Assembly (NCBI RefSeq): GCF_037126175.1
Contig: NZ_CP146986.1
Span: 1,454,501 to 1,518,500, forward strand
Source: Pseudomonas sp. RSB 5.4
GTDB taxonomy: Bacteria; Pseudomonadota; Gammaproteobacteria; Pseudomonadales; Pseudomonadaceae
Length of the DNA stretch: 64,000 nt
Direction of reading: 5' to 3'
The position numbers and the translations under genes are program-made. Position 1 is the stretch's first letter, and the number at the start of each line of letters is the position of its first letter. A model generated the notes under the pieces. That model was not told where the DNA came from, searched no databases, and saw only the letters and a list, made by a program, of their open reading frames with translations. Below are positions 1,409 through 33,126 of the stretch, in pieces.

Positions 1409-3997
1409 CTATCGACCAAGAAGATAGGGATCGTCTTCGACGCTGTAATTTTCGAGTGTTAGTAACTCGAATTGAATGCCATCCACCCTCAGGGCAGTCT
1501 CAGCCGTGCGCATTTCCTCTTCGAGCCGAACGCCTATTTCCATGACCGCCAAAATAGCCCGATCCGGCCTAAGTCGCTTCGCAAGGTGAACGAAGTCCTC
1601 GATGTGAGCGGCCCGCAGACTGCGCCACGCCGACTTCACCTCGCAGAGAATGGATTCGCCATCAACGACAGCAAGCAGATCCGCTTCCACATCGGGATTT
1701 CTGGAGTCGGGCGAATAGCCAAAACAAGTCGGCCCAAGATACATGAACGACGAATTCGCTCGATCACAAAGAGCTGACAGGAGCCAAACGAGTGACAAAA
1801 CACTACGAGAGCGAAGGCTTTCAATGAGAAATTCGTTCGGTCGAAAATACCAAGGTATACCGACGGGCAGCTCCTTTTCAGTTCGACACACATCGCACAC
1901 AAGAGCAGGCGACAACGCCTGATAGTCAGTCCAATTCCGATGCCGGCAGGTGTCGCAGCTCCATGGGTATCCTTGAAAGAGCATTAGACGCGACCTCATT
2001 TCAGCGAGTCGATCATCAATAGCCTGCTGCTCCATACCATCCCAATCTACCTCGTCCTGTTCAACGTCCAATCTAGGTAATGGGTGCTCCGCCCAATACC
2101 TCTCTCTGTGAGCCTTCCAACAATCTCGTAAATAGTCGAGTGATACGTGCATTCGAGGGGCTTTGATTGACTGCGCGGCTTTCACAATCAGCGCGGCGAG
2201 GGTTTCACGTTCACCTTCCTGCTGCAGATCGAATATCGGGCGTCCTTTCGCACGCTTTGCGAGCGCGTTCGCGGTGGCCTTGACGTCTGCATCCGCGAGG
2301 TTGGGGGCTCCACCTAAACTAGCAAAAACATCCTGCAGGAACGGATGCAAGAGCAAGCTTTTAGCGCCTGCCAATCCTCCTGTCATTCCAAGAATGCCAA
2401 TTAGATGGGGACTTTCGTTTGAGGCTTTCATCCATGCAGCTTTCTTTTGCGGCCAAGGTGGATCGCCAGGGCCGACACGCCTCGCCGCAGAATCGAGGCA
2501 CATCGCGCTCCTGAAAGCCTGATCAATAGTAGGAACGGTTACTGACTCAAGCTCTCGGTTGAAGCCAGCAAATAGGGTCAGGTTACCGTTTCTACTTGTA
2601 CGACACATAGGTGAAGGATTGTTCTGTGCGAAGCCTTTGGTTATGAATTTCGTGACAAAGGCACCCGCCATGCGCCACCTCTTCGGCAGCATCCATACGT
2701 TATCTTGGGCGAGCCTCGGCTTATCCCGCTCATACTCAAAGCTCAAATCGAGCGCCCAGAGGCCTAGCGTGAATACTTGGCCCGTTGGCGCATCCCTAAG
2801 ATGCTCCGGTTCCTTTGCCGGCGGGTAAGCAACCGGTGACTTCCAGCGAAATGCGTGCCGCTCTCCAGATCTAAATCCGTCTGAGAACTCGGCCACCTCA
2901 CGAGCTCGTTTTAGCGAATCTTCGCTCGGAATGACATGCCCACCGACAATTACCGCAGCTGGCCCATGAGCGCTCCATGCTTTTGCTGCTCGGAGCCGTT
3001 CAAGTACTTCGTTAAGCTCATCGATAGTATGGGACGCCGAGCGTATTCTAAGCTGCGACTGTCCACCTCCCCCGCCGTTTACATGATTGCGCGTGTTAAG
3101 CAATTGAACGAGCAGGTTGAGCATATCCTCATCTTTCAGCTGATCGAGCGTCATCCGGAAACAACATAAGTCGTTGTCGAGCCATGCAGGGATCAGCAGC
3201 CTCGCATTCCAGAACATAAGCCTGTCCTCGAAAGAGTCACCGATCACCAAGTTGAATGCATCACTCCATCGATAGTCACGTATTTCAAGGCGTGTCGCGT
3301 ACAACGACGACAACATACTTAGGCTCGTGACGCGCTTACCCACAAACTCAAGAAAAGCCATTTCTTCTGATGCCACGCGGTCAAGGTCACGGGGTACGCC
3401 GAATTCACGCTTTTCATAGTGATCGTCAGAGACGATGGTCATCAGACCAGCTGCTACCCGAGCGTCGTTAGGGTACATGCCCGTAGCCGCGCTCCCCTGG
3501 TAGGTTCCGAAGTTGTCTGTCAAAAATCGACTCGGCTTTTCCGTATACCAACTGTCGATAATTTTGATTTTTGGCCCGCCTGCCAATGGACTGTGCCGAG
3601 CCAGACGAAACACGGTTGAGAGTGATGAGAGTGCGGGAGGATACTGTGGCCGAAATCCATTCAGATTTAGCCTCGGTTCGTTATCTAAGCGGTGAAGGAT
3701 GTAGTCACTTGGGACTAAGCGCTCATGAATTTCAAGAACTCGTTCTGCGGCTAAATTGGCATACGCGTAAACAATGTCGGGATCAAAAGCCTCCAACCAT
3801 TGCCAATACTCAGCGACAATTTGACCATCCGCACAAGGAGCGATGAGACTGAATCGCCCACCCCACCGCGAATAGCAGTCAGCAAATATTCCATCGAGCA
3901 CTAAGCCTGCGTGCTCTGTTGACTCGACGAGAAAGGCTATTCTTAGAGGCCGGGATCTCACTCGTCCCGCTAGTTCTGCGCGAAGCTCATCTGACAT
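1409..3997 (-). CDS. Large protein of unknown function with zinc ribbon and PD-(D/E)XK-like C-terminus
   Basis: An 862-aa protein whose N-terminal 650 residues I do not recognise. The C-terminus has a CxxC-CxxC zinc ribbon (C681, C684, C701, C704). After it comes a segment with the spacing of a PD-(D/E)XK nuclease core: D773 in the VEADLL strand, then E786 and K788 in the CEVKSAW strand. The core suggests a metal-dependent nuclease, but the rest gives no substrate clue. The ATG at 3997 has a strong GAGGAGAGGGGA ribosome-binding site. The gene converges on the exonuclease gene and lies beside a transposase remnant, so it may be island cargo such as an anti-phage effector (inference). Confidence 0.7.
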   Translation of the reverse strand: MSDELRAELAGRVRSRPLRIAFLVESTEHAGLVLDGIFADCYSRWGGRFSLIAPCADGQIVAEYWQWLEAFDPDIVYAYANLAAERVLEIHERLVPSDYILHRLDNEPRLNLNGFRPQYPPALSSLSTVFRLARHSPLAGGPKIKIIDSWYTEKPSRFLTDNFGTYQGSAATGMYPNDARVAAGLMTIVSDDHYEKREFGVPRDLDRVASEEMAFLEFVGKRVTSLSMLSSLYATRLEIRDYRWSDAFNLVIGDSFEDRLMFWNARLLIPAWLDNDLCCFRMTLDQLKDEDMLNLLVQLLNTRNHVNGGGGGQSQLRIRSASHTIDELNEVLERLRAAKAWSAHGPAAVIVGGHVIPSEDSLKRAREVAEFSDGFRSGERHAFRWKSPVAYPPAKEPEHLRDAPTGQVFTLGLWALDLSFEYERDKPRLAQDNVWMLPKRWRMAGAFVTKFITKGFAQNNPSPMCRTSRNGNLTLFAGFNRELESVTVPTIDQAFRSAMCLDSAARRVGPGDPPWPQKKAAWMKASNESPHLIGILGMTGGLAGAKSLLLHPFLQDVFASLGGAPNLADADVKATANALAKRAKGRPIFDLQQEGERETLAALIVKAAQSIKAPRMHVSLDYLRDCWKAHRERYWAEHPLPRLDVEQDEVDWDGMEQQAIDDRLAEMRSRLMLFQGYPWSCDTCRHRNWTDYQALSPALVCDVCRTEKELPVGIPWYFRPNEFLIESLRSRSVLSLVWLLSALCDRANSSFMYLGPTCFGYSPDSRNPDVEADLLAVVDGESILCEVKSAWRSLRAAHIEDFVHLAKRLRPDRAILAVMEIGVRLEEEMRTAETALRVDGIQFELLTLENYSVEDDPYLLGR

Positions 3998-4607: not shown

Positions 4608-5366
4608 TTACTTAGCATCGTGAAAGATGATACCCAGGGTATGACGTTGCCCCCAAATCAGCTGGCTGACTCCATGGCGCAGACTCACGCGGTAGTAGCC
4701 ACGCGTAGAGCGAACGGGACGATTGTTGACCGCAAGCACCAAAGCGTCCCCTTGGTACAGAGGGACTACCTCTGCTCGCCCGGGTTTCTTCGGATCACTC
4801 TCTGTCAGCAGAAGCTCTCCGCCCCCAAACTCCCGCCCTGGCTCATTGAGCAGGAAGATGACTTGGAATGGGAATACGTGATCTCCGTAGAGGTCTTGGT
4901 GCAGACAGCAGTAATCGTTCGCCTGATACCGTAGCAGCAGTGGTGTCGGCCGATGCTGGCCAGCGGCATGACAGACTTCCCGAAATTCGTCATGGGTGGC
5001 AGGAAAGCGCTCTTCAATCCGCATTGCGGCATGCCATCGATTTGCAATAGGCGCAAGGTGAGGATAAAGCGACTGGCGTAGGCGTCCGACTGCATCGGGC
5101 AACGGATAGCTGAAATATTTATACTCGCCCCGGCCAAATGCGTAGCGCTCCATCACGATGCGACTGCGAAAGCGGGCCTCTTCGAAGAAGTAGCCTGCGA
5201 GTTCTTCACATTGGGCAGTTGTCAGTAGCGAGGGCAGCACCGCAAAGCCATCGCGCCCCAGACTGTCTTCGACAACATTCCAGTTCGTTGCTTGAATCCG
5301 GGTCTCGGGTCGTTCGTGCGACATGTGGTTTTCCGCGTCGGCGGACATGGACAGTAGTGCGCTCAT
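4608..5366 (-). CDS. 2OG-Fe(II) oxygenase (paralogue 1, HxD intact)
   Basis: A 252-aa 2-oxoglutarate/Fe(II)-dependent oxygenase. The iron ligands are visible as H156-Q-D158 (CLHQDLYGDHVFPFQV) and H231 (LRHGVS). The 2OG-binding Arg is probably R241 (GQRHTLG). It shares its whole layout with the proteins at 9710-10432 and 5687-6391, so the three are paralogues. It is the last gene of the ada operon, and its ATG overlaps the upstream Ada-like metal-binding gene by 4 bp. The repair context suggests an alkylation-related substrate, but the family also hydroxylates proteins and small molecules, so the substrate is unknown. Confidence 0.8.
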   Translation of the reverse strand: MSALLSMSADAENHMSHERPETRIQATNWNVVEDSLGRDGFAVLPSLLTTAQCEELAGYFFEEARFRSRIVMERYAFGRGEYKYFSYPLPDAVGRLRQSLYPHLAPIANRWHAAMRIEERFPATHDEFREVCHAAGQHRPTPLLLRYQANDYCCLHQDLYGDHVFPFQVIFLLNEPGREFGGGELLLTESDPKKPGRAEVVPLYQGDALVLAVNNRPVRSTRGYYRVSLRHGVSQLIWGQRHTLGIIFHDAK

Positions 5367-5668
5367 GAGTGTGTCTCTTTACGGGTACCGCTCAGATGGG
5401 CGGGCTGGTTCTTCTTCCAAATCGCGTATTCCTGAGGCATGCAAACGGCGCACGGCCGGTAGCCGGCGGCAATTGCGATGGTCTCGTCGGCAAAGAAAAC
5501 GCGATATTTCACATAACTACCGCGAGCAATCGCCTGCCTCGCAGCGCGGCAATCAAGGCGGCCGTACAGCCTGCCACCACGATGTCCTCCGATGGAGCCA
5601 GGCAGGAGACTGGAGTAAGTCTTACCGTCGGGCCCAACAAGGGTGAACGTCTTATTCGATGTCAGCAT
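5363..5668 (-). CDS. Ada-type metal-binding domain protein
   Basis: A 101-aa protein made almost only of a domain like the N-terminal zinc domain of Ada. It has LDC (C40) and GYRPCAVCMP (C73, C76), matching three of the four Ada zinc cysteines. The position of the second Ada cysteine is Ala. Stand-alone proteins of this type are common, and their role is unclear. The ATG at 5668 has GGGAG upstream. It is the third gene of the ada operon, 18 bp after the oxygenase gene ending at 5687, and overlaps the next one by 4 bp. Confidence 0.75.
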   Translation of the reverse strand: MLTSNKTFTLVGPDGKTYSSLLPGSIGGHRGGRLYGRLDCRAARQAIARGSYVKYRVFFADETIAIAAGYRPCAVCMPQEYAIWKKNQPAHLSGTRKETHS

Positions 5669-5686: not shown

Positions 5687-6391
5687 TCAATTTGCATCGT
5701 GGAATGACAATTCCAATCCAATGCGCTCCCCCATGCGCACCCGGCTGATGGCGTGTTTTAGGTTGACGCGGTAATAGCCTTTGGTGCCCTTGAAGGGACG
5801 CTCTGCCGTGGTGATGATGGCTACGTCACCGAGCTTGAGTGGTACCACCATTGGGCGCGACTGCATGCGCGGACGTTGTTCTGTCATCACGAATTCGCCT
5901 CCCTTAAAGTCCGAACCAGGCTCTGACACCAGCGCCACGATCTGCATGGGAAAAAGAAGCTCACTATCATTTCGCTGATGCAGTGATACATGGTCTTCCA
6001 CACCAAGCCTGTTCAGATGGGACTGTCCCCGTGTCTGACCAGACTCCCGGTTGTGCCGCAAAAAATCATCCAGCTCGTCCGGGTAGCGATAATCGACGCC
6101 CAAGGTTTCGTTCCAGCGATTGGCGATGACGACCAGGCGGCGATACAGAGTTGTGCGCCACGTGTCCAGCGGCGCCGGCAAGCCTGTGTCGAAGTACAGC
6201 AATTCACCGCGTCCCAAATCACTGGACTCCAAAGTGACTCGACGGATACCCGACGTTGTGACTTGCTGCGCCAGACTGCCCGCCATTTCTACGCCCAACA
6301 AATCGGGCAACACAGCATAGCCTTCGACATCGAGTTGCATGCTGATGTCCATCCAGTCCAGACGATCAAGTGTTTTATTGAATTCAGACAT
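5687..6391 (-). CDS. 2OG-Fe(II) oxygenase paralogue with altered iron-binding motif
   Basis: A paralogue of the oxygenases at 4608 and 9710 that keeps the second His (LKHAIS) and the FHDAN C-terminus. The HxD iron motif reads H-Q-R (LHQRNDSELLFP), so the Asp ligand is replaced by Arg, with an Asp two residues further on. It may be catalytically dead or use a shifted ligand. The start was placed at 6391, where AAGGGA precedes ATG by 6 bp. An ATG at 6406 would overlap the ada stop as TGATG. It is the second gene of the ada operon. Confidence 0.75.
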   Translation of the reverse strand: MSEFNKTLDRLDWMDISMQLDVEGYAVLPDLLGVEMAGSLAQQVTTSGIRRVTLESSDLGRGELLYFDTGLPAPLDTWRTTLYRRLVVIANRWNETLGVDYRYPDELDDFLRHNRESGQTRGQSHLNRLGVEDHVSLHQRNDSELLFPMQIVALVSEPGSDFKGGEFVMTEQRPRMQSRPMVVPLKLGDVAIITTAERPFKGTKGYYRVNLKHAISRVRMGERIGLELSFHDAN

Positions 6392-6405
6392 GGGACATCC
6401 CTTCA

Positions 6406-7470
6406 TCAAACCGAGGCTTCGCGATGCAAAAGCTCGCGCTTGCGATCAACACCCCACCGGTAGCCAGCCAGATCGCCATCACGTCGCACGACGCGGTGGC
6501 AGGGAATGGCAACGGCGATGTGATTTGTAGCGCAGGCTTGAGCCACGGCGCGTACAGCTTTGGGTGAGCCGATGCGCTCGGCGATCTCCGTGTAGCTCAC
6601 GGTCGTACCCGGCGGGATCTCACGCAGTGCGCGCCAGACACGCTCCTGAAAGGCCGTACCCTGTACGTCCAACGGCAGGTGTAGCCCGATCGAAGGCGTT
6701 TCGATGAAACCAACTACTTGGGCGATCAATTGCTCGAACTCACTATCGCAACCGATGATCTCTGCCTTGGGGAACTGATCTTGCAGGTCACGCACCAACT
6801 GATCAGGATCGTCGCCCAACAAAATGGCACAGATACCGCGCTGACTCTGGGCTACCAGGATGGCACCCAGTGAGCACTGGCCCACCGCGAAGCGAATGAC
6901 CGTTCCAGCACCACCCGCCCGATAGTCACGCGCACGCATGCCCAGCAACTGATCTGAGGCCTCATAGAACCTGCTATTGGAATTGAAGCCCGCGCCATAG
7001 ATAGCATCAGTGATGGATGCCTCCGGACAGCTCAGCTCCTCACGCAGCTTTCGAGCTCGATAAGCCGAGCTGTAGGCTTTGGGCGTTAGTCCGGTTTCGG
7101 CTTTGAACAGGCGATGAAAGTGGAACGGGCTCATGCCCACATCAGCTGCCAGACTGTCCAATGAGGGCGGTGTCTCCGATGCCTCAATCAAGCGGCAGGC
7201 GCGTTCAACCAACTCGGCGCGAATGGCGGCAGCACTCGTCTGGTCGCCACGGGCGCGACGGCTGCATCGGTAGCCTGCCGCCTCGGCGGCTTTGGCCGAA
7301 TCAAAGAATTTCACATTCTCGCGCTTGGGTAGCCGTGCCGTCGAGCTCGGCTGACAGTACACGCCTGTTGTGCGCACGGCGTAGACGAAATGCCCGTCAG
7401 CGGCGGCATCTCGCGCCTGCACGGCGTTCCAGCGGTCGTCTTCGGTCGCATACGCAATGGTCGTAATCAT
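6406..7470 (-). CDS. ada: Ada: alkylation-response regulator and O6-methylguanine-DNA methyltransferase
   Basis: A 354-aa Ada protein with its three modules in order: the N-terminal methylphosphotriester domain (residues 10-78), an AraC-type HTH (about 85-185), and the C-terminal O6-alkylguanine transferase with PCHR (C324). In E. coli, methylation of the N-terminal Cys (C38) turns Ada into an activator of repair genes. The equivalent C39 is present here (GVYC). Of the other three zinc cysteines only C69 remains: the C42 position is Ser (PSS) and the C72 position is Arg. The gene heads an operon with two 2OG oxygenases and an Ada-like metal-binding protein, behind the conserved box at 7530-7544. 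Confidence 0.93.
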   Translation of the reverse strand: MITTIAYATEDDRWNAVQARDAAADGHFVYAVRTTGVYCQPSSTARLPKRENVKFFDSAKAAEAAGYRCSRRARGDQTSAAAIRAELVERACRLIEASETPPSLDSLAADVGMSPFHFHRLFKAETGLTPKAYSSAYRARKLREELSCPEASITDAIYGAGFNSNSRFYEASDQLLGMRARDYRAGGAGTVIRFAVGQCSLGAILVAQSQRGICAILLGDDPDQLVRDLQDQFPKAEIIGCDSEFEQLIAQVVGFIETPSIGLHLPLDVQGTAFQERVWRALREIPPGTTVSYTEIAERIGSPKAVRAVAQACATNHIAVAIPCHRVVRRDGDLAGYRWGVDRKRELLHREASV

Positions 7471-7503: not shown

Positions 7504-7544
7504 AGGATATGAGGGGACTCAGCCGCAAGAACTCCGATTCTTGC
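7504..7544 (-). promoter_or_regulatory. Putative Ada-box promoter A (ada operon)
   Basis: On the minus strand the box GCAAGAATCGGAGTT (7544-7530) is followed, after exactly 20 bp, by TATCCT (7509-7504), a plausible -10 hexamer. The ada ATG lies 33 bp further on. The same box and spacing recur at four more places in this island. E. coli Ada sites also contain a GCAA core just upstream of the promoter. Assignment to Ada is inference. Confidence 0.7.
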
Positions 7545-7553
7545 GACCAATGT

Positions 7554-8204
7554 TTACCGACTGGGCAGACGCCACAGATACCAAGCAGCCACCGTCCGAA
7601 AAGGACTCCAAGCCTCGCCAATCTCACGCATCTGGCGCGGTGTGGGTGCCTTTTCCAGGCGTTTCAGGCGACCGTAACCTTCCCGTACACCGAAGTCGTC
7701 CACCGGGAGAATGTCGGAACGCTCCAGCGAATAAATCAGGAACATTTCGACAGTCCACCGTCCCACACCACGCAAGGAAGTCAGGCGCTCGACCAGTGCC
7801 GAATCAGACAGATGTCGGGCCTCTTCGAGGTTAGGTACAACGCCTTCAACGGCTGCTTGAGCAATGGCGCGGATGGTTGCCAACTTTGCGGTCGAGAAGC
7901 CACAGGCGCGCTGAACTTCTGGCTCGCTCGCCAGCAATTGTTCCGGTGTAGGAAAGGACGTAGCCGGATATAGCGCCAACAGGCGCCCCAAAATCGCATC
8001 ACCTGCCTTGGCGTGCAGTTGCTGGTAGGCGATGGCCCTTATCAATGCTTCATAGGGCTCGCGAGCAGGCTTGGCCTCATGCCGACAGGGGCCAATAACG
8101 GCGATATGACGAGCCCAGTCCTCGTCCATCTCGGACAAGAACAGAGCAGCTTCCTGGAATGCGCGCGGTGACAGATCGTCCGCTATGGTCTTGCTCAAAA
8201 TCAA
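7554..8204 (-). CDS. alkA: DNA-3-methyladenine glycosylase II (AlkA-like)
   Basis: A 216-aa HhH-GPD base-excision glycosylase that removes alkylated purines. The helix-hairpin-helix reads LRGVGRWTVEMFLIY. The catalytic Asp is in LPVDDFGVREG. It lacks the N-terminal TBP-like domain of E. coli AlkA, so it belongs to the shorter AlkA-like group. The start is TTG at 8204, overlapping the ogt stop, so translation is coupled. It is the last gene of the 8982-7554 operon behind promoter B. Confidence 0.88.
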   Translation of the reverse strand: MILSKTIADDLSPRAFQEAALFLSEMDEDWARHIAVIGPCRHEAKPAREPYEALIRAIAYQQLHAKAGDAILGRLLALYPATSFPTPEQLLASEPEVQRACGFSTAKLATIRAIAQAAVEGVVPNLEEARHLSDSALVERLTSLRGVGRWTVEMFLIYSLERSDILPVDDFGVREGYGRLKRLEKAPTPRQMREIGEAWSPFRTVAAWYLWRLPSR

Positions 8205-8749
8205 AACCCCGGCAACATGGCGGTATGCGGTTCTTCTTTCTGCGCAATAGCCTTTTCATGCCCCAGCAGCCAACGCTTGCGATGAAGGCCCCAGGCATAA
8301 CCCTTAAGGTCTCCATTGCTGGCAATGACCCGATGGCACGGCACGATGATGGCTATCGGATTGGCGCCATTTGCCGCTCCTACGTCGATGGCAGCACGCG
8401 GATCATCAAATCCCAACTCCTTGGCAATCTTTCCATACGTCGTAGTCTGGCCCGCCGGGATTCGGCGAAGTGCAGCCCAGACGCCACGTTGCAGTTCCGA
8501 ACCGGCAGTTGCAGTTCGCAGCGAATTTAACGCCTCCCATTCACCCTGGAAGTAGCGAGCCAGTGCATCTGCGATCTCTGTTGGAGCTTGCTTTTCAGTC
8601 AGTTCCACCTCGTCATAGTGCTGGCGTAAAACGCGCTGTAATCTTGACTGGTGGTCAACGAAATCGAGTGCACGCAAAGTATCATTTGCATCGGTGACGA
8701 GCAGTATGGCGCCCAATGGCGAATCCAAATGGCTCAGGAACAGGTTCAT
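8201..8749 (-). CDS. ogt: Methylated-DNA--protein-cysteine methyltransferase (Ogt type)
   Basis: About 182 aa. A suicide enzyme that transfers the O6-alkyl group from guanine to its own Cys in the PCHRVIASNGDLKGYAWG motif. It has the N-terminal ribonuclease-H-like domain (SPLGAILLVTD) and the C-terminal active-site domain. The start at 8749 was chosen because AAGGAG stands 6 bp before it. A longer reading from 8782 lacks such a site. It is the second gene of the promoter B operon, after a 63-aa ORF and before alkA. Confidence 0.9.
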   Translation of the reverse strand: MNLFLSHLDSPLGAILLVTDANDTLRALDFVDHQSRLQRVLRQHYDEVELTEKQAPTEIADALARYFQGEWEALNSLRTATAGSELQRGVWAALRRIPAGQTTTYGKIAKELGFDDPRAAIDVGAANGANPIAIIVPCHRVIASNGDLKGYAWGLHRKRWLLGHEKAIAQKEEPHTAMLPGF

Positions 8750-8790
8750 GATGCACTCCTTATTTAATCGGCTTGGTGGCATCTGATTGC

Positions 8791-8982
8791 CTACTTCAAA
8801 CGGGTCACACCCACGTTGCCGAAAAGAAAGGCTTCGCCGCTTTCCAGATGCAACTCGGGATCACCGTTCTCGTTGATCCGCCATTGCGCCGCCCCGGCAC
8901 TCACCAGCGATTGGCAATAGGTTTCGACCTGGCGGCGCTCCTCGGAGAGCCATTCCATCTTGTCTGTGGATGTCGTGTTCAT
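8791..8982 (-). CDS. Small hypothetical protein in alkylation-repair operon
   Basis: A 63-aa protein with no recognised family. It is predicted mixed helix and strand, with the segment NENGDPELHLESGEAFLFGNVGVTRL near the C-terminus (read in parts). The ATG at 8982 has GAGG 6 bp upstream. It is the first gene after promoter B, followed 41 bp later by ogt and alkA, so it is likely induced with them. Confidence 0.6.
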   Translation of the reverse strand: MNTTSTDKMEWLSEERRQVETYCQSLVSAGAAQWRINENGDPELHLESGEAFLFGNVGVTRLK

Positions 8983-9005
8983 TTGTAACCTCGCCTGCTG
9001 CGATC

Positions 9006-9046
9006 ACTCTAGTGACTTCGCAGCTAGTAGAAACTCCGAACCTTGC
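9006..9046 (-). promoter_or_regulatory. Putative Ada-box promoter B (small ORF-ogt-alkA)
   Basis: Minus-strand box GCAAGGTTCGGAGTT (9046-9032), then 20 bp, then TAGAGT (9011-9006). The ATG at 8982 follows. Identical geometry to promoters A, C, D and E. Confidence 0.68.
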
Positions 9047-9062
9047 TTTTGAACTCTCAAAA

Positions 9063-9707
9063 TCATCCCGCTTTGCGGAAAGTGAAATTGATGCGCTGGC
9101 TGCCAAGCAGCGGATGAGGGTCGTCTTGGAGCGGCATCACACCGTGGTAGCGAAGGCGATCCGTTCCGCCCCACACCACAACGTCCCCGTGGTGCAACGG
9201 CACCTTTACCGTAGGGTCGGTGCGTGCATGGCCGCCGAACTGGAATTTGGCTCGCATGCCCAGGGAAACTGAAACGATGGGATGCTCATAGTCCCGCTCA
9301 TTTTTGTCCTGGTGCAACGAAAGCCTGCTACCGGGTAAGTAGCGGTTGACTAAGCAGGCGTCCGGCTCGAAGTTGTCATATCCCGCATTCGTCGCGGCAT
9401 CGCTCGCCAGCCGGGTAAATACCTCCGGCATGACTGGCCAAGGTTTGCCGGTGTCGGGATCGTGGGAGATATAGCGATAACCACGTCGATCGGTCGTCCA
9501 ACCCAGCGAGCCGCAGTTCGTCAGCGCGACTGACATGGTAAACCCACCCGGGGTCACCATGTACCGGAAGGGCGACACGGCAGTGATGGCTTCAATGGCA
9601 GTCATCAACTCGGACATGTAAGGCAATGCGAATTCGCGCAATACGATAGCGGAAGGCCCCAGACGCAGGTTTTGCGCTGGTGTCTCGAAAAGTTCAAGTG
9701 TTCTCAT
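9063..9707 (-). CDS. alkB: AlkB: 2OG/Fe(II) DNA repair dioxygenase
   Basis: About 214 aa. AlkB oxidatively removes methyl groups from 1-methyladenine and 3-methylcytosine in DNA and RNA. The ligands H132-Q-D134 (SLHQDKNERDY) and H188 (RLRYHGV) are present, as is the C-terminal R-x5-R signature (SQRINFTFRKAG). The GYRYI segment matches the substrate lid of E. coli AlkB. The ATG at 9707 has GAGG 5 bp before it. A GTG at 9713 would overlap the upstream stop. It is the last gene of the promoter C operon. Confidence 0.92.
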   Translation of the reverse strand: MRTLELFETPAQNLRLGPSAIVLREFALPYMSELMTAIEAITAVSPFRYMVTPGGFTMSVALTNCGSLGWTTDRRGYRYISHDPDTGKPWPVMPEVFTRLASDAATNAGYDNFEPDACLVNRYLPGSRLSLHQDKNERDYEHPIVSVSLGMRAKFQFGGHARTDPTVKVPLHHGDVVVWGGTDRLRYHGVMPLQDDPHPLLGSQRINFTFRKAG

Positions 9708-9709
9708 GT

Positions 9710-10432
9710 TCACCTCGCGTCGTGAAAAATGAGGCCCACGGTATGGCGCTGGCCGCTACGGATGCGGCTAACGCCGTGTCGCATCGCGACCTTGCGGGCA
9801 CCTCGCAGGCCCGTCGCCGGCCGTTGATTGACAGTGAACACAACGGCATCCCCTTGGTGCAGTGAGACAACTTCCGCACGCTGGCCCTTGGTTGAAAGCT
9901 CCGTCATCACGAACTCACCACCGGCGAAATCCTTGCCGGGTTCCGATAGCAGGATGGCCACCTGGAGCGGAAAGACATGCTCACCGTAGAGGTCTTGATG
10001 GAGGCAGTTGTAGTCACCTTCGCCATATTTAAGGATCAGTGGCGTTGGCCGCGTTTGGCCAGCCTCGTGACATCGCTTCAGAAAGACGGCCAGATCGCGG
10101 GGGTACTGCACGTCGATCCCTAATTTCAAGTTCCAACGATTGGCAATCGGCGCGAGCCTGGAATAAATCGCGTGACGGAGTTGGTCGAGCAGCGGCGGCA
10201 GCGGGTACGCGAAATATTTGTATTCGCCACGCCCGAATCCGTGCCGAGCCATTACGATACGCGAGCGATAACCCTCTTCCAGTGGATAGAGCGCGGCGAG
10301 TGTCGCGCACTGTCCCGCAGTCAAAAGGCCGGGCAGCAGCACGTTTCCGTGAGCCTCAAGCGAACGCTCGATACTCGCCCAGTCGCAGGAATTGAGTGTC
10401 GTGACATTGTCGAGACTCGCCGCAGCGTTCAC
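9710..10432 (-). CDS. 2OG-Fe(II) oxygenase (paralogue 3)
   Basis: A 240-aa 2-oxoglutarate oxygenase closely related to the protein at 4608-5366. It shares GFGRGEYKYFAYPLP, the H145-Q-D147 iron motif, a second His in MRHGVS, and the GQRHTVGLIFHDA end. It lies between ogt-like and alkB genes with a 4-bp overlap upstream and direct contact downstream, so it is an integral operon member. Three paralogues in one repair island point to a repair or detoxification task, but the substrate is not deducible. Confidence 0.82.
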   Translation of the reverse strand: MNAAASLDNVTTLNSCDWASIERSLEAHGNVLLPGLLTAGQCATLAALYPLEEGYRSRIVMARHGFGRGEYKYFAYPLPPLLDQLRHAIYSRLAPIANRWNLKLGIDVQYPRDLAVFLKRCHEAGQTRPTPLILKYGEGDYNCLHQDLYGEHVFPLQVAILLSEPGKDFAGGEFVMTELSTKGQRAEVVSLHQGDAVVFTVNQRPATGLRGARKVAMRHGVSRIRSGQRHTVGLIFHDAR

Positions 10433-11010
10433 TCCGAAAACTCCATGCTTCGCTTGGTGGACTCATCTTTGAGCAATGAACGTTTGCGTTCGATACCCCA
10501 GCGGTAGCCGGAGATCGAACCGTCACGACGCACCACGCGATGGCAAGGAATGGCAATGGCCAGCACGTTGGCTGCACAGGCTCCCGCTACGGCGCGAACT
10601 GCCTCTGGCACACCGAGGCCCCGTGCCACATCGCTGTAGCTACAGGTCTTGCCTGCCGGGATGTCGCAAAGCGCCTGCCAAACTTTCTGCTGAAAAACGG
10701 TGCCGCCAATATCGAGGTGGATAACACCTGCGAACATCTGATTGTCGATGAAACCGATGACCCGATTGAGTTCGTGTTCTAGAGAGGCTTGATCAGCTTG
10801 CAGTTCAACATTCGCAAATTCGGCCGCGAGCTGCTCACGCAGTTCTTGCGCGTCGTCGCCGAGAAAGATGGTGCAGATGCCACGCTGACTACGGCCGATA
10901 AGAACCTTACCCATCGCTGATTGGCTGACGGCGAATTGAATGGGGCCTTCCACTTTGCTGCCCGGAATGCGGAAGTTGTACTTGAAAGGAGAACGGGAGG
11001 GAGTGTTCAT
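10429..11010 (-). CDS. Ada C-terminal-like O6-alkylguanine-DNA methyltransferase
   Basis: A 193-aa methyltransferase with PCHRVVRRDGSISGYRWG around the acceptor Cys. Its first 100 residues (SQRGICTIFLGDD and neighbours) match the corresponding part of the Ada protein in this island better than the Ogt at 8201. It therefore looks like a duplicated Ada C-terminal half. It is the first gene after promoter C and is followed by an oxygenase and alkB. The ribosome-binding site before ATG 11010 is weak. Confidence 0.88.
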   Translation of the reverse strand: MNTPSRSPFKYNFRIPGSKVEGPIQFAVSQSAMGKVLIGRSQRGICTIFLGDDAQELREQLAAEFANVELQADQASLEHELNRVIGFIDNQMFAGVIHLDIGGTVFQQKVWQALCDIPAGKTCSYSDVARGLGVPEAVRAVAGACAANVLAIAIPCHRVVRRDGSISGYRWGIERKRSLLKDESTKRSMEFSE

Positions 11011-11043
11011 GACCTTGGCTCTTATCGGTTGGCGAGTGAGTTC

Positions 11044-11084
11044 AGTCTAGGGGTCGCTCTCTTCCTTGAAACTCCGCTCCTTGC
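11044..11084 (-). promoter_or_regulatory. Putative Ada-box promoter C (methyltransferase-oxygenase-alkB)
   Basis: Minus-strand box GCAAGGAGCGGAGTT (11084-11070), 20 bp, then TAGACT (11049-11044). The ATG at 11010 follows. Confidence 0.68.
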
Positions 11085-11103
11085 GGTCAAACTCTTTGGC
11101 TAG

Positions 11104-11676
11104 CTACCAGCCTGGGTATCTGGCGACGAGTTGCAGCCACAACGAGAGACACCCCGCGTCGTGCATGTAGTGCAGCGCTTCAGAGGCCTTCCACGTACAG
11201 GGGACTCGCCGCAGCCAGATCGAATCAGGGCCTGAGCGATACATCCAGACAATGGTGGTAACTACCATTTGTTGTTCTGGCGACATGGCCCGAAAATCGG
11301 CGCGCCATCGCGCCATTTCTTCCGGATAGTTTTCGCCAGTGCACGCGTTGTAGGCAGAGGGGTAAACGCTTCGGTGATATTCGCCGTCGCCTGTTTTCGC
11401 AAACAGATTGAATAGTTTCAATTGTCGTATGGTTTGTTGCAGAGCTTCATGGAAGCGTTCCGGAGATCGCTCAAATGGGTAGACGGAATTCGACAGGGCG
11501 TCGATCTGTGCAGCCTCTTCGAGATCGAGATCCAGAAGCCACAATACAAGGTGTTCAAGTCGCATCTCATCCAGGCGCGAACTGGTAGCAGCCGGAGAGA
11601 GCGAGTCCTGTTTTACTGCCTTAACCCAAGCAATGAGTGATTGCGTCAAAGAGTCGGTCTGTGCAGTTTCGGTCAT
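11104..11676 (-). CDS. Hypothetical protein in repair island
   Basis: About 190 aa, soluble, with no recognised family. Features are a helical N-terminal half and a C-terminal region rich in Trp and Tyr (IVWMYRSGPDSIWLRR). The length is typical of a DUF3775-like small helical protein, but I cannot confirm any family. The start at 11676 (MTETAQ) is preferred over an upstream GTG at 11748. It sits between promoter C and the cytidylyltransferase gene and has no Ada-type box of its own. Confidence 0.6.
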   Translation of the reverse strand: MTETAQTDSLTQSLIAWVKAVKQDSLSPAATSSRLDEMRLEHLVLWLLDLDLEEAAQIDALSNSVYPFERSPERFHEALQQTIRQLKLFNLFAKTGDGEYHRSVYPSAYNACTGENYPEEMARWRADFRAMSPEQQMVVTTIVWMYRSGPDSIWLRRVPCTWKASEALHYMHDAGCLSLWLQLVARYPGW

Positions 11677-11763
11677 AGTGCTGGTTTCATTTAAAAAGGG
11701 ATGCAGCAGAGCAGATACAGGTGCCAGCGGTGAGGAGTTGGCACCCACCCGATGCTGCGTTGG

Positions 11764-12237
11764 TCAGAAGGTAAAAGCGGTGTCCACAACGCGGTGGTGT
11801 CGGCGCAATCGACTGGCTATTTCATCGATGTTTTTTAGTGTGCGTCGCAGCGTGCTGCTTGATGTTATTTGTCCGTATGGTAGATAAACAATCTCCACAC
11901 CAAGCACGTCGAAGCGTCGTTCGAGTTGGTTACCTTTCTCCGTGCCTTTCCAGTCATCACCCTTGAATATCACGTTGAATCGGAGGTCTTTCCAGATCGC
12001 CACTTTGTCGTTGGTGAATGCCGGATAGGCCGCATCGACGTGACGGACGTTGCGTACGATCTCCAACCGCTCGACAAGCGGAATAACAGGCTTCACCCCC
12101 TTGTACTCAATCAGAACGTCGTCAGCCACAACACCGGCGATGAGGAAGTCGCATCTCTCTTTGGCTTGCCTCAAAAGATTGAGGTGTCCGATGTGAAACA
12201 GGTCGTAGGCGCCAGGTGCGTAGCCGATTCGAATCAT
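11764..12237 (-). CDS. Glycerol-3-phosphate cytidylyltransferase-like (TagD family)
   Basis: A 157-aa nucleotidyltransferase. HIGHLNLL (near residue 16) is the CTP-binding HxGH motif, and TSSSTLRR near residue 125 matches the ISSSxLR motif of TagD. Enzymes of this family make CDP-glycerol or related CDP-alcohols from CTP. The C-terminal extension of about 25 residues is basic. No polymerase or wall-teichoic-like genes are nearby, so the pathway is unknown. It is separated by 87 bp from the hypothetical gene downstream. Confidence 0.85.
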   Translation of the reverse strand: MIRIGYAPGAYDLFHIGHLNLLRQAKERCDFLIAGVVADDVLIEYKGVKPVIPLVERLEIVRNVRHVDAAYPAFTNDKVAIWKDLRFNVIFKGDDWKGTEKGNQLERRFDVLGVEIVYLPYGQITSSSTLRRTLKNIDEIASRLRRHHRVVDTAFTF

Positions 12238-12462
12238 GGCGGTGGTGTCTTTTCCCGGGGGTTGAGAGTTAGACAGTGGAGATCTATCGCTGCAACGGGT
12301 TAGGGGCGCTCCGTTTCCTGCTCAGAAACTCAGAAAATGTGGAGAGCAAAGTAGAACGCTCAATGCGAAGAAGGCCGGCAAAAATGCGGGCCTCCTTGCG
12401 CAGGTCAGGAGCAGTGTTCCACGCTTAACAAGAATGGAATGACTTTCCTTGTTTTGTGAATA

Positions 12463-12930
12463 TCAAGCATCACCGTTAGTGGTTGTCGCTTTGATCAGAC
12501 CCAGTTGAGTCAGGGCTGCGACGCCATCATCGAGACCGCGCTCTTCCACGATCTTGCCGTCAATCACCTTCAACACCGTGGTGCCGGTGAAGTGCATTTT
12601 GCGACCCGTTGCGGCAGGCAGACCACCGATGAGAAAGTCGTCGTGAGCCGGGCCGGTGTGAGTACCACCACCTTCCCACTGACCCACTACGTAATCCCCT
12701 TCGGCGATCAGGTCGGCTGTGCCCCAGAAATTGAGATCAGGGAATGCCCTACGGAAATCGGTCATGAACGCCTTGATGTCATCGCGGCCACGGCGAGGTT
12801 CGTGCAGAGAGTAGTGAAGCAGCATGTCGGGAGCGGCGATTTCGTCAATGACCGCCAGGTTTGGATTCTTGCCCCAGAACTCGGTGAACCAGCGGCCGAC
12901 GACGGCCTTGTTTTGTTCTTCGTTGCTCAT
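12463..12930 (-). CDS. SnoaL-like / ester cyclase family protein
   Basis: A 155-aa NTF2-fold protein of the SnoaL-like polyketide cyclase or 'ester cyclase' group. It shows typical segments FRRAFPDLNFWGTADLIAEGDYV and TGRKMHFTGTTVLKVIDGKI (read in parts). Members are small alpha+beta barrels with diverse roles. The start at 12930 (MSNEEQNK) has GAGGA 8 bp upstream. It stands alone behind promoter D, so it is a likely new member of the Ada regulon. Confidence 0.8.
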   Translation of the reverse strand: MSNEEQNKAVVGRWFTEFWGKNPNLAVIDEIAAPDMLLHYSLHEPRRGRDDIKAFMTDFRRAFPDLNFWGTADLIAEGDYVVGQWEGGGTHTGPAHDDFLIGGLPAATGRKMHFTGTTVLKVIDGKIVEERGLDDGVAALTQLGLIKATTTNGDA

Positions 12931-12991
12931 TTCGACAATCCTCGTAAGTAGTCTCGAAAAGGGCATCGACACATTCGATGACCTTGGTGCA

Positions 12992-13032
12992 ACGATAAGC
13001 ACCAGGTCGGGATTCGAAACTCCGATTCTTGC
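12992..13032 (-). promoter_or_regulatory. Putative Ada-box promoter D (SnoaL-like gene)
   Basis: Minus-strand box GCAAGAATCGGAGTT (13032-13018), identical to that of ada, then 20 bp, then TATCGT (12997-12992). The gene start at 12930 follows. Confidence 0.68.
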
Positions 13033-13176
13033 TGCACAAACTAGGTTGAAGGTTTGGTCGATGCGATGGAGCCCACCACTCCTCAGAGGGCACCTGATCA
13101 CCTTGGAGACATGCTCATTGCATTCGAACACCCTGACGCGTCGAGGCCAGTTGCACCATCCCGATCTATTTATTGT

Positions 13177-13923
13177 TTAAGCCCTTAGCAGGCGAGGATC
13201 CTGGATATAGAAATCTTTCACCAGCGAGGCCAACCGCTCCAACTTAGTGTCACGAATACCGTTCGCGTGCAGGCTGTCACAGGTTCGAAACAGGTAATCA
13301 GCTGAGCTTCCAAGTCCTCCAGATGCAGTTGCCAGTCTATACACCACCGTATCTTCATCAAGATCGCCAGCGTACTGGGGAGCATCGGCATCAATGATGA
13401 ATGTAATTGCCCACCCTAAATTCTCCCCATCAATGCTTTTTAACTCGATCCAGTGGGGAACATAAGCACCACATACCATTTCTCTTCGCCAGAGCAAAAG
13501 CAATTCGTGCTCGAGGTGAGCCTCCGCTAATTTGTAGGCCGCTCCGTAGCAGGAGCCCCCCCGATCCAATGCAAGCATCAATCCTGGGCGATCGGCTGTT
13601 GCACGAAGCGCTGTGATTGATAGACAGAACGATCGGTGCCAACCGTCGATTCTGGCAATACGTCTTTCCACGGAATCAATCGCCGGATTCCAGATCAACG
13701 ATCCGTAGCCGAAGACCCAAACATCACCGCGTGGCCGTAACGACAACATCTTACTCAGCGATGCTTTTCGGTCGGCGTCTGTGAGGAGCTTCAAGTTTGG
13801 AGAATCAATGGCAGCAAGCACCTCGATGCGCCCTCCTTCAACCAAATCACGAGTCAGCAAAGGTGACGGATTTTGTTTTTCTCTTCTTGCTGATTGCTGC
13901 GCAGAAGAAATGCTGGCGGTCAT
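13177..13923 (-). CDS. Gamma-glutamylcyclotransferase (ChaC-like)
   Basis: About 248 aa. The VFGYGSLIWNP motif is the signature of the ChaC/GGCT family, which cleaves glutathione to 5-oxoproline and Cys-Gly. A Glu in the LWRREM segment fits the catalytic acid. The start at 13923 (MTASIS) has GAGG 5 bp before it. An upstream ATG at 13941 is less good. It is preceded by promoter E, which links glutathione turnover to the alkylation response. That is chemically sensible because glutathione traps alkylators (inference). Confidence 0.87.
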   Translation of the reverse strand: MTASISSAQQSARREKQNPSPLLTRDLVEGGRIEVLAAIDSPNLKLLTDADRKASLSKMLSLRPRGDVWVFGYGSLIWNPAIDSVERRIARIDGWHRSFCLSITALRATADRPGLMLALDRGGSCYGAAYKLAEAHLEHELLLLWRREMVCGAYVPHWIELKSIDGENLGWAITFIIDADAPQYAGDLDEDTVVYRLATASGGLGSSADYLFRTCDSLHANGIRDTKLERLASLVKDFYIQDPRLLRA

Positions 13924-13982
13924 ATTTACCTCGTGGGGCATTTGTGGCGATGCGCTAGGATTACACCTGCGCTTTAAGAGCC

Positions 13983-14023
13983 ACTTTGCCTACGAGGTGA
14001 ATTGGGGTAACTCCGATTCTTGC
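13983..14023 (-). promoter_or_regulatory. Putative Ada-box promoter E (chaC-like gene)
   Basis: Minus-strand box GCAAGAATCGGAGTT (14023-14009), identical to boxes A and D. After 20 bp comes CAAAGT (13988-13983), a poorer -10 than in the other four copies. Confidence 0.6.
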
Positions 14024-16538: not shown

Positions 16539-17075
16539 TTAGGGGGAAGTTCCGAAGAGCACCGCAGCCGCTTCCCTCATAAAAATCTCGATGGTTTTCG
16601 GCCCTATCCCTTCAAAGTCAGATAGCCGTTTTTCGAAGGCCTTACGATCTGCGCTTGCTGCGACGATGTTGCTGACCTTCCCGTGATATTCAGCATTCAT
16701 CTTGTTAGCCAATGCCAACAACCGCGACGCGGTGGTCTCGTCGTAACGCACGTAGTGAGCCTCACCAAGCATCATGACCAACTGGCGGTGAGTGCAGCTC
16801 GCCAATTTGTGCGGCGTATCCCGATGATGTTTATCGACGATCACTTGATAGGCGTTGGCAGCAATTGGCCCCTGGATTCTCTTGCCCATCAGGAAACTGG
16901 CAAGCAGCCATTTGAATAACCCGGCTTCGTTCGCACCTTGAAGGTCGATTTGTAAGTCATGTGCGCAGATGATTTTGCTCACTGGTTCACCCTCAAGCGA
17001 TGGTCTCAATGTAGACCAGGCGCTATCGCGAATGATCCAGCTGTGCGACGCCGTGATAAAGGAACCCTTATTCAT
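16539..17075 (-). CDS. Helix-hairpin-helix (endonuclease III-like) protein
   Basis: A 178-aa protein with FEGIGPKTIEIFMREA near the C-terminus, the helix-hairpin-helix of the endonuclease III superfamily. Its N-terminal part (NEAGLFKWLLASFLMGKRIQGP) resembles the helical start of HhH-GPD glycosylases. The catalytic Lys/Asp and FeS cysteines of Nth are not evident, so glycosylase activity is doubtful. An alternative GTG start 30 codons in, after GAGGG, is possible. It is divergent from the small ORF at 17120. Confidence 0.65.
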   Translation of the reverse strand: MNKGSFITASHSWIIRDSAWSTLRPSLEGEPVSKIICAHDLQIDLQGANEAGLFKWLLASFLMGKRIQGPIAANAYQVIVDKHHRDTPHKLASCTHRQLVMMLGEAHYVRYDETTASRLLALANKMNAEYHGKVSNIVAASADRKAFEKRLSDFEGIGPKTIEIFMREAAAVLFGTSP

Positions 17076-31427: not shown

Positions 31428-31859
31428 ATGAGCATCACCATCCTCGGCCCTCTAGCTTCTGGCGGTAGGAAGCTGCCTCTCTATTCATCCAGGGTGCCGG
31501 CAGGCTTCCCCTCCCCTGCGGCTGATCACATCGAAAAACACATTTCCTTAGATGAGCTGTTCGATATCCGCGCGCCGCATGTGTACCTGGTGAGAATCGA
31601 TGGGGACAGCATGCAGGGCGCCGGAATTTATTCGGGGGATCTGGTGGTGGTTGATCGGAGCATCGATGCGGTCAGCGGCGACATAGTCATCGCAGCGCTG
31701 AACTCGGAGCCATTCTGCAAGCGCCTGCTTCTGCGTGAGAACGCCGTGATGCTTGTATCGGAGAACCCAAGATATCCGGCAAGGCATGTCATGGAAGGCG
31801 ATGAGCTGGTGATCTGGGGTGTGGTGAAATACAGCGTGCGCGATCATGACAATACGTGA
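31428..31859 (+). CDS. umuD: UmuD/RulA: translesion polymerase autoproteolytic subunit
   Basis: A 143-aa LexA/UmuD-fold serine peptidase. The self-cleavage site PAG (A25-G26), catalytic Ser61 (DGDSMQGAGI) and Lys98 (EPFCKRLL) are all intact. RecA-stimulated cleavage activates polymerase V. It is preceded by a LexA box and overlaps umuC by 14 bp. It could equally be named rulA, as in Pseudomonas plasmid and chromosomal copies. Confidence 0.93.
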   Translation: MSITILGPLASGGRKLPLYSSRVPAGFPSPAADHIEKHISLDELFDIRAPHVYLVRIDGDSMQGAGIYSGDLVVVDRSIDAVSGDIVIAALNSEPFCKRLLLRENAVMLVSENPRYPARHVMEGDELVIWGVVKYSVRDHDNT

Positions 31860-33126
31860 GCCCGTCTTTGCCCTGATTGACTGCAACAGCTTCTACGCGA
31901 GCTGCGAGCGAGTGTTCAGACCCGACTTGGCAAAGACGCCCATTGTGGTTTTGTCCAACAACGACGGCTGTGTGATTGCGCGCAGCTACGACGCCAAGCC
32001 TTTCGTGAAAATGGGCCAGCCGTACTTCCAGATCAAAGACCATCTACGCCGGCATGGGGTTGTGGCATTCAGCAGTAATTACGCTTTATACGGCGACATG
32101 AGCGAACGTGTCATGACGATCATTGAATCGTTGGTGCCAGCGCTAGAGGTCTACAGCATCGATGAGGCGTTCGCCGATCTCACTGGTCTCCCTGGAGATC
32201 TTTCTGCGTTTGGTCGGCAAATGCGCTCTACCCTTCTCAAACGTACGGGCATCCCTGTCGGGGTGGGTATTGCACGCACTAAGACACTGGCCAAACTTGC
32301 CAACCACACCGCCAAACGTCTGCTGGACATTACCGGCGGCGTGGTCGATCTCTGCGATCCGTTCAAACGTGACTGGACACTGCGCAATACCGATGTCGGC
32401 GAAGTCTGGGGCATTGGCAAACGCATGAAGACTCACCTCGAAGTCATGGGCATCAAGACCGCAATGGACTTGGCAAAAGCCGATCCGTGGTTGCTCCGCC
32501 AGAAATTCAGTGTGGTGATCGAGAAGACTGCTCGCGAGCTGGCCGGCACCTCATGTCTGGAATTGGGCGAGGCTGACCCACCCAAACAAGAGATTTGCTG
32601 TAGCAGAATGTTCGGCACCCGGCTCGCGCAGATCGAACCGATCAAGGAGGCCGTCGCCACCTACACCCAACGCGCGGCGGAAAAACTCAGAGCGCAAAAC
32701 TCACTGTGCAAGAAGATCCGCGTGAGTATCAGGACAGGGATGTTCAATCCCGAAGAAGCGAAGTACGCGAACGGCGCACTCGTCGAACTACCCTACCCGA
32801 CAAACGACGTTCGACTCATGACCAAGGCTGCGACCGAAGCCGTCAATCGTCTGTATCGACCGGGCTTCAAGTACAGCAAAGCGGAGGTTCTGTTGATGGA
32901 TCTCCGACAACCTGGCGAGTTCACCGACGATTTATTCGCACATTCACAGCCCGTGATGGCCAACAAGGTGATGAGCGTTCTGGATGAAATCAATGGCCGT
33001 TGGGGAAAGGGAGTCGTCCGGTTGGCTAGCGTGCCTGCAGCGCCTAGATGGGCGATGCGTCGAGATTTGATGAGCCAAAGTTACACGACCAAGCTAGATC
33101 AACTGTGGACGGTGAAGGCCAGGTAG
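31846..33126 (+). CDS. umuC: UmuC/RulB: Y-family DNA polymerase V catalytic subunit
   Basis: A 426-aa Y-family translesion polymerase. The N-terminal FALIDCNSFYASCERVF holds the first catalytic Asp (D12), and YSIDEAFADL holds the D-E pair. Full length, including the little-finger domain and C-terminal UmuC extension. It acts with cleaved UmuD at stalled forks. Confidence 0.95.
   Translation: MTIREPVFALIDCNSFYASCERVFRPDLAKTPIVVLSNNDGCVIARSYDAKPFVKMGQPYFQIKDHLRRHGVVAFSSNYALYGDMSERVMTIIESLVPALEVYSIDEAFADLTGLPGDLSAFGRQMRSTLLKRTGIPVGVGIARTKTLAKLANHTAKRLLDITGGVVDLCDPFKRDWTLRNTDVGEVWGIGKRMKTHLEVMGIKTAMDLAKADPWLLRQKFSVVIEKTARELAGTSCLELGEADPPKQEICCSRMFGTRLAQIEPIKEAVATYTQRAAEKLRAQNSLCKKIRVSIRTGMFNPEEAKYANGALVELPYPTNDVRLMTKAATEAVNRLYRPGFKYSKAEVLLMDLRQPGEFTDDLFAHSQPVMANKVMSVLDEINGRWGKGVVRLASVPAAPRWAMRRDLMSQSYTTKLDQLWTVKAR

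Follow-up and report, generated by a model that had tools for sequence, protein, structure and literature searches.

The window analyzed here is a 64,000-nucleotide stretch of the genome of Pseudomonas sp. RSB 5.4 (NZ_CP146986.1, positions 1,454,501 to 1,518,500), and the subject is a 15-bp sequence, GCAAG(A/G)(A/T)(T/G)CGGAGTT, which heads its alkylation-repair genes and is designated as a putative Ada box. Five copies are present, all on the minus strand and without mismatches: box 1 at 7530..7544 (GCAAGAATCGGAGTT), box 2 at 9032..9046 (GCAAGGTTCGGAGTT), box 3 at 11070..11084 (GCAAGGAGCGGAGTT), box 4 at 13018..13032 (GCAAGAATCGGAGTT), and box 5 at 14009..14023 (GCAAGAATCGGAGTT). This confirms the positions reported in the first-pass annotation, which also placed a -10-type hexamer 20 bp after each copy. 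The latter holds for four of the five: TATCCT (7504..7509), TAGAGT (9006..9011), TAGACT (11044..11049), and TATCGT (12992..12997), all on the minus strand, follow boxes 1 to 4 at exactly 20 bp and fit TAnnnT. CAAAGT (13983..13988, minus strand), which stands 20 bp from box 5, is not a good -10 element, and box 5 is the weakest of the five sites. With the -10 at 20 bp, the 15-mer covers about -47 to -33 and therefore overlaps the upstream edge of the -35 region, which adjusts the earlier description of the box as ending at the -35 position.

All five boxes face leftward units, in agreement with the earlier claim that the box heads each clear repair unit, with ada in the first; every gene named in this paragraph lies on the minus strand. 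Box 1 heads the ada operon, composed of ada (6406..7470), a gene for a PF09859 oxygenase (5687..6394), a gene for a standalone 101-aa Ada_Zn_binding-like protein (5363..5668) whose Pfam score is barely above the cut-off, and a second PF09859 oxygenase gene (4608..5366). Box 2 heads orf63 (8791..8982), an ogt-type O6-methylguanine methyltransferase gene (8201..8749), and an AlkA-like HhH-GPD glycosylase gene (7554..8204); homologues of orf63 stand behind a box also in two other loci (L040 and L051). The unit of box 3 includes a second ogt-type methyltransferase gene (10429..11010), a third PF09859 oxygenase gene (9710..10432), and alkB (2OG-FeII_Oxy_2; 9063..9713). Behind box 4 are genes for a SnoaL-like protein (12463..12930) and a cytidylyltransferase-like protein (11764..12237), followed by orf214 (11104..11748), which has no Pfam match. 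Box 5 heads a gene for a ChaC-like gamma-glutamylcyclotransferase (13177..13941). The island Ada contains all the expected domains, Ada_Zn_binding, an AraC-type double helix-turn-helix (HTH), and the O6-methylguanine methyltransferase. The double HTH is complete (HTH_18 matched over 1-79 of 80, with fold matches to AraC-type domains), and the methyltransferase active site PCHR is kept (P323-C324-H325-R326).

From base composition, a match to the 12 fixed bases is expected 0.009 times per 64 kb, where five were found, and this rules out a chance origin of the five boxes. The expectation for the 6.24-Mb genome is 0.84. The whole genome contains six exact matches, five of them in the window; the sixth (1858343) lies inside a long open reading frame (ORF) and was discarded as a chance match. 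The five copies could also be alike only through recent promoter duplication inside the island, given five near-identical 15-mers in 6.5 kb next to repeated gene types (two ogt and three PF09859 genes). The spacers and the flanks beyond box and -10 share no sequence among the five copies as judged by eye, and they are therefore not one duplicated promoter. Moreover, genes of the same types are preceded in other genera by boxes that vary in N3 and in the last base, and duplication as the sole cause is hardly credible.

The box was scanned for in 122 sequences: the first 20 kb of the window, 80 loci (designated by L numbers), one Cupriavidus megaplasmid locus, and 40 genus regions. GCAA-anchored sites with at most one mismatch numbered 205, of which 163 stand before an ORF whose product resembles an island protein (a few of these are likely chance matches inside genes), 39 before an unrecognized ORF, and three before none. 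Among the 161 distinct boxes before a recognized ORF, TAnnnT is found at exactly 20 bp in 136 and at 21 bp in two, while the other spacings from 5 to 39 bp occur 0-4 times each. The shared layout is an A/T-rich element, N6, GCAAG, N3, CGGAGT(G/T), N20, and TAnnnT, and it is found upstream of ada in many beta- and gammaproteobacteria and some alphaproteobacteria. Most of the 80 loci carry the motif before ada, frequently with an AAT that precedes GCAA by six bp, and many ada genes have a box-type site at a distance of about 40-105 bp on their 5' side. The source genome has a second ada at 1783694, 67% identical to the island Ada, with GCAAGGCCCGGAGTG and TAACCT at 20 bp. Four of eight alphaproteobacterial plasmid loci carry GCAAGNNNCGGAGTG before ada, and the rest have a changed site or no clear site. 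In the P. putida group, nine loci show GCAAGA(A/T)CCGGCGTT with TAAGCT at 20 bp before alkA, in a sample that did not include strain KT2440.

Outside the window, the last base of the box is more often G than T. The exact form ending in GTT was rejected as the general box of relatives: it was found in 40 of 95 genomes, with 68 matches, six of them from the source genome itself, against 39 for the reversed-pattern control. The form ending in GTG was found in 48 of 59 genus genomes, with 85 matches against 40 in the control, so that this count includes chance matches. Of the 40 regions around GTG-type matches, eight have no Ada match in the stretch and one has a partial match.

A 51-column matrix trained on 89 ada sites gave 130 matches in 82 sequences (1.68 Mb) and none in reversed sequences. 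Seventy of these matches are labelled Ada and are hence near the training set. The 60 others precede genes for ogt (17), PF09859 (11), alkA-like proteins (7), SnoaL (5), TMEM175-like proteins (4), alkB (3), the cytidylyltransferase (1, the L065 homologue of the box 4 gene), and orf63 (1), or unrecognized ORFs (11), so that in 49 of the 60 cases the gene is TMEM175-like or homologous to one of the island. Seven of the nine P. putida-group sites and four of the five window boxes pass the matrix; box 5 fails with a score below 14.

The known E. coli Ada site consists of AAT, N6, and GCAA (He et al. 2005, as cited in PMC4437013 and PMC6505713). The GCAA core, or B box, is present in all five window boxes, which agrees with the earlier statement that E. 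coli Ada sites share it, and the A/T-rich element 6 bp upstream of GCAA is part of the family consensus. The residues equivalent to E. coli R45 and R71, which contact the A box, and F114, H115, and R118, which contact the B box (listed in PMC3788762), are kept in the island Ada in the alignment. The alkA promoter of P. putida is induced by methyl methanesulfonate (MMS) and N-methyl-N'-nitro-N-nitrosoguanidine (MNNG) only with Ada, and the B box is essential there while the A box is dispensable (PMC3788762). A regulator other than Ada, or an extracytoplasmic sigma factor, might instead read the box, since a two-part motif of fixed spacing could be a sigma promoter and the Ada assignment itself is derived from sequence. 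It is set against this that the box holds the A/B layout of Ada, precedes ada in many genera, and co-varies with Ada residues as described below, and that the induction of the P. putida alkA promoter is lost in an ada mutant (PMC3788762). Another reader is thus very unlikely, and the assignment of the box to Ada is nearly certain. Of the earlier name, a Pseudomonas Ada box, the part concerning Ada stands, through the sites before ada in many loci and before alkA in the P. putida group, while the restriction to Pseudomonas does not.

The 3' half of the box suggests a third element, CGGAGT, beside the known A and B boxes. As the first-pass annotation had claimed, CGGAGTT is not part of the E. 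coli site; at the position of CGGAGT, E. coli reads GTTGGT (ada), CAGCGT (alkA), and TTTCTG (aidB). Outside Enterobacteria, by contrast, the CGGAGT half is widespread. AraC-family proteins use their second HTH to read a half-site that lies one turn away from that of the first, and in MarA/SoxS/Rob and AraC the two HTHs lie on two half-sites about one turn apart, with the second adjoining the -35. The second HTH (HTH2) of the island Ada (codons 153-178; 6937..7014, minus strand) aligns with that of MarA (structure 1bl0). Ada differs from these regulators in two respects: an extra N-terminal domain reads the A box, and the protein is switched through covalent methylation. The solved Ada chains that were found cover only residues 8-147 and 178-352 of the window Ada, and therefore HTH2 (about 153-177) is in none of them. 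A description of a third element was not found in the open-licence literature, a scope that leaves out older subscription footprint papers of the 1980s-90s.

Co-variation between HTH2 and the 3' half was analyzed with sites picked by their A-to-B part alone, after which the Ada residues were compared with the 3' half. Sites with an A-to-B score below 12 or without GCAAG/GCAA were dropped before the counts (in the first set, 39 of 147 for the cluster comparison and 38 of 147 for the count of CGG), partial or distant Ada-like matches were excluded (in the second draw, the partial matches G635 and G317), and relatedness was handled by clustering only. The first set comprised 157 sequences, of which 10 lacking a full-length N-terminal Ada match were dropped; of the remaining 147, 108 had a clear site, and clustering at 75% identity grouped these into 32 clusters. 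On average, CGGAGT was matched at 5.4 of 6 bases with Arg167 (28 clusters) and at 2.7 without it (four clusters; Fisher p = 4e-4), and R167, F168, and E246 were tied at the top of 342 Ada columns. A second draw took 68 Adas from a phylum-wide sample, 33 of them with a clear site, in 26 clusters. CGG was found in 24 of 25 sites with Arg167 and in one of eight without (p = 1.4e-5), with R167 and G112 tied at the top; the second draw shares genera with the first and is therefore not fully independent. In the second draw, CGGGATG or CGGGACG takes the place of this half for several Adas with Arg167, most of which are from outside the source class; this is possibly a second layer. Where HTH2 has changed, in E. 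coli and its relatives, the CGGAGT half has changed too. It is quite likely, as far as these comparisons go, that HTH2 directly contacts the CGGAGT half, with Arg167 (codon at 6970-6972, minus strand) as the proposed reader of CGG.

The boxes might be Ada sites in which CGGAGT is a promoter element, such as an unusual -35 or a contact of sigma or alpha, rather than the target of HTH2. CGGAGT does adjoin the -35 position and stands at a fixed distance from the -10. Its bases C9, G10, G11, and A12 of the 15-mer, on the other hand, occupy about -39 to -36 and so fall 5' of the -35 hexamer, and the element varies with HTH2 residues. In the four Enterobacteria examined, the CGGAGT half is changed while the -10-like hexamer at 20 bp is retained. 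This makes a promoter element improbable compared with recognition by HTH2.

Recognition by HTH2 also bears on an exchange puzzle between E. coli and P. putida. E. coli cells fail to induce the alkA promoter of P. putida, a failure which was called surprising and for which spacing or small box differences were suggested (PMC3788762). The promoter is described there in terms of A and B boxes. Spacing as the cause is weakened by the present comparison: a -10-like hexamer stands at 20 bp also in E. coli ada (CAGCCT) and aidB (CATACT), as well as in the ada promoters of Citrobacter, Salmonella, and Klebsiella, and spacing is therefore less likely. A mismatch of the E. coli HTH2 with CGG would fit the exchange failure better. 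An array study in E. coli concluded that A and B boxes may be insufficient (PMC6505713).

Taken together, the five boxes are probably activator sites of the island Ada, bound in three contacts including HTH2 on CGGAGT(G/T), with an estimated probability of about 0.82. The Ada N-terminal domain would touch the A/T-rich A box, the first HTH (HTH1) would read GCAA, and HTH2 would read CGGAGT(G/T) about one helical turn beyond it. Ada would thus sit immediately 5' of the -35 region and in contact with it; as the promoter lacks a good -35, transcription would need Ada. Activated Ada would turn on all five units together, comprising the repair proteins, the SnoaL-like protein, and ChaC. The second Ada of the genome probably acts at the five boxes as well. 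The direct HTH2 contact, the activation in the source strain, and the way in which an Ada poor in zinc ligands would sense methylation are inferred.

Several observations weigh against this model. An exact AAT A box is found in none of the five window sites (ACA, AGT, AGT, GTT, and CTT), which are therefore variant rather than E. coli-type boxes, and box 5 has neither an A box nor TAnnnT. In E. coli alkA, the -10-like hexamer is at 11 bp rather than at 20. P. putida cells do induce the ada promoter of E. coli, to about one third of the level reached in E. coli (PMC3788762), and therefore the third element is not absolute. E246 in the first set and G112 in the second draw tie with R167. Adas without Arg167 are few and mostly from Enterobacteria, and the co-variation is therefore partly phylogeny. 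One site (L322) keeps CGG without Arg167, and Arg167 sites without CGG amount to 16 of 103 in the first set (ten read CAG) and one of 25 in the second. No clear site was found for 39 of the 147 Adas of the first set and for 35 of the 68 of the second draw; among the latter are five of the ten loci from other genus members, and these five have Ala at 167. A convincing box is also missing for Ada-like proteins that are more distant, with about 30-35% identity (L137, L141, L142, L149, and L152 of the source genome itself). The AlphaFold model of the island Ada is usable for the N-terminal domains and too weak at HTH2, with a mean predicted local distance difference test (pLDDT) of 47 for residues 161-170. 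Finally, the zinc switch of the island Ada cannot, from its residues, be of the plain E. coli type.

The Zn(Cys)4 site of E. coli Ada is formed by C38, C42, C69, and C72. The corresponding positions of the island Ada are C, S, S, and A; the methyl-acceptor Cys39 (codon 7354-7356) is kept, and codons 43, 70, and 73 are changed. Without three of the four zinc ligands, the switch may differ from the classic zinc/charge switch of Ada (PMC10779285), and it may be that the island protein works like Ada with an N-terminal switch that is not to be assumed. The Adas of the P. putida group, in contrast, have all four zinc Cys. Among the 157 sequences, only the first zinc Cys is kept in 94, including the second Ada of the source genome, all four in 42, and 21 have another pattern or no readable site. 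In seven loci (L053, L054, L061, L076, L077, L078, and L104), the site is similar except that the methyl-acceptor Cys is lost as well. The 101-aa Ada_Zn-like protein of the ada operon (5363-5668) has its own conserved GGHR and three Cys, and it is present in 21 of the 157 sequences, in no case together with an Ada whose zinc site is complete. A zinc site split between Cys39 of Ada and the three Cys of the small protein is an attractive idea that finds no general support: most sequences with a zinc-poor Ada lack the small protein, an absence which is weak evidence because many sequences have short flanks.

In box 1, the 15-mer is followed by CTTGCG, which forms an inverted B box (CGCAAG...CTTGCG, 7524-7544) overlapping the -35 region. 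Such an inverted B box (at least 5 of 6 bases) directly 3' of the box was found in 38 of the 102 boxes labelled Ada, a label which takes in five short ORFs (156-168 aa) matching part of Ada, and in one of 61 others. It may serve ada autoregulation, since it is nearly restricted to ada promoters.

Beyond the repair genes, the SnoaL-like protein and ChaC here, and a TMEM175-like potassium channel elsewhere, are likely new members of the regulon, judging from the boxes before their genes. A matrix-level box precedes the SnoaL-like gene of five sequences (the window, Variovorax, a proteobacterial metagenome-assembled genome (MAG), Serratia grimesii, and a Ramlibacter MAG), and the Dyella gene has a one-mismatch box with 21-bp spacing. 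Within the same unit, the L051 homologue of orf214 is behind a one-mismatch box. TMEM175-like genes stand behind a matrix-level box at L048:7244, L050:5507, L051:14001, and L065:1191; three have the Pfam domain, and the L048 piece was recognized by BLAST similarity only.

The recurrence of the box appears less strong before ChaC than before ada, ogt, PF09859, alkA, alkB, and SnoaL. Box 5 could be a chance or decayed site, with ChaC outside the regulon, as its lack of an A box, its CAAAGT, and its low matrix score would allow. Outside support is also thin: the ChaC gene of S. grimesii (49% identical) is behind a box with one mismatch and no TAnnnT, and in Teredinibacter a weak 79-aa ChaC-like ORF (30% identity) follows a site also assignable to a PF09859 gene. 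Box 5 nevertheless matches at 12 of 12 fixed bases, the S. grimesii gene does follow a box, and on a Pseudosulfitobacter plasmid a ChaC-type gene is divergent from and adjoins ada. A chance or decayed box 5 is therefore somewhat unlikely. Glutathione activates MNNG, a methylator of the nitrosoguanidine type, and potassium efflux protects E. coli from electrophiles; because of this background, ChaC and the channel would be sensible regulon partners.

Other genes were also observed behind boxes: a short-chain dehydrogenase/reductase (SDR) at L043:11107 and L047:11109 (the scanned gene being that of L043), alpha/beta hydrolases at L045:5022 and 6888, LysR regulators at L071:7001 and L072:5797, where TAnnnT is absent at 20 bp, and at L235:1881 a transporter-like protein with a match below the cut-off. 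From their position, these may possibly be lineage-specific members.

The G+C content is 50-58% over most of the first 60 kb of the window and 61-62% in the last 4 kb, and genes for TniB and a weakly matched rve-type transposase are found at 52525-55493. From these genes and the shift in G+C, most of the window is probably a single island. Adas of Variovorax, Cupriavidus, Alcaligenes, Cellvibrio, Dyella, and S. grimesii share 80-90% identity with the island Ada, and most of the Pseudomonas loci listed share 66-70%, with four at 73-76%. Because it is closer to other genera than to most Pseudomonas loci, the ada cassette has probably moved between genera. The Ada regulon is real and looks functional, and the island that carries it is probably mobile. 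The window also includes a UmuC/ImpB-type translesion polymerase gene (31846-33126), a gene for an 862-aa protein without a Pfam or NCBIfam match (1409-3997), and one for a 178-aa protein (16539-17075) whose match to HhH-GPD repair proteins is weak and falls below the cut-off.

A wider reading is tentative and falls just short of an even chance. The three-part Ada box would be present in much of Proteobacteria, with E. coli as an exception whose HTH2 has drifted and whose third element has decayed. The zinc site would have been lost in the beta/gamma branch to which the island belongs, in favor of another trigger (for example, methylation of the C-terminal Cys or a zinc-free Cys39), and the regulon would extend to a ChaC that lowers glutathione and to a TMEM175-like channel.

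The Ada response is a textbook system, yet what is known of its DNA code derives from three promoters of E. coli and from structures that, among those found, lack HTH2. A third element read by HTH2, if true, would bear on both this code and the exchange puzzle. Ada regulons become predictable beyond E. coli with a matrix that gave no match in the reversed control. SnoaL-like proteins, ChaC, and a potassium-channel family are possible alkylation-response genes, and the zinc-poor Adas raise the question of how damage is sensed without the zinc site.

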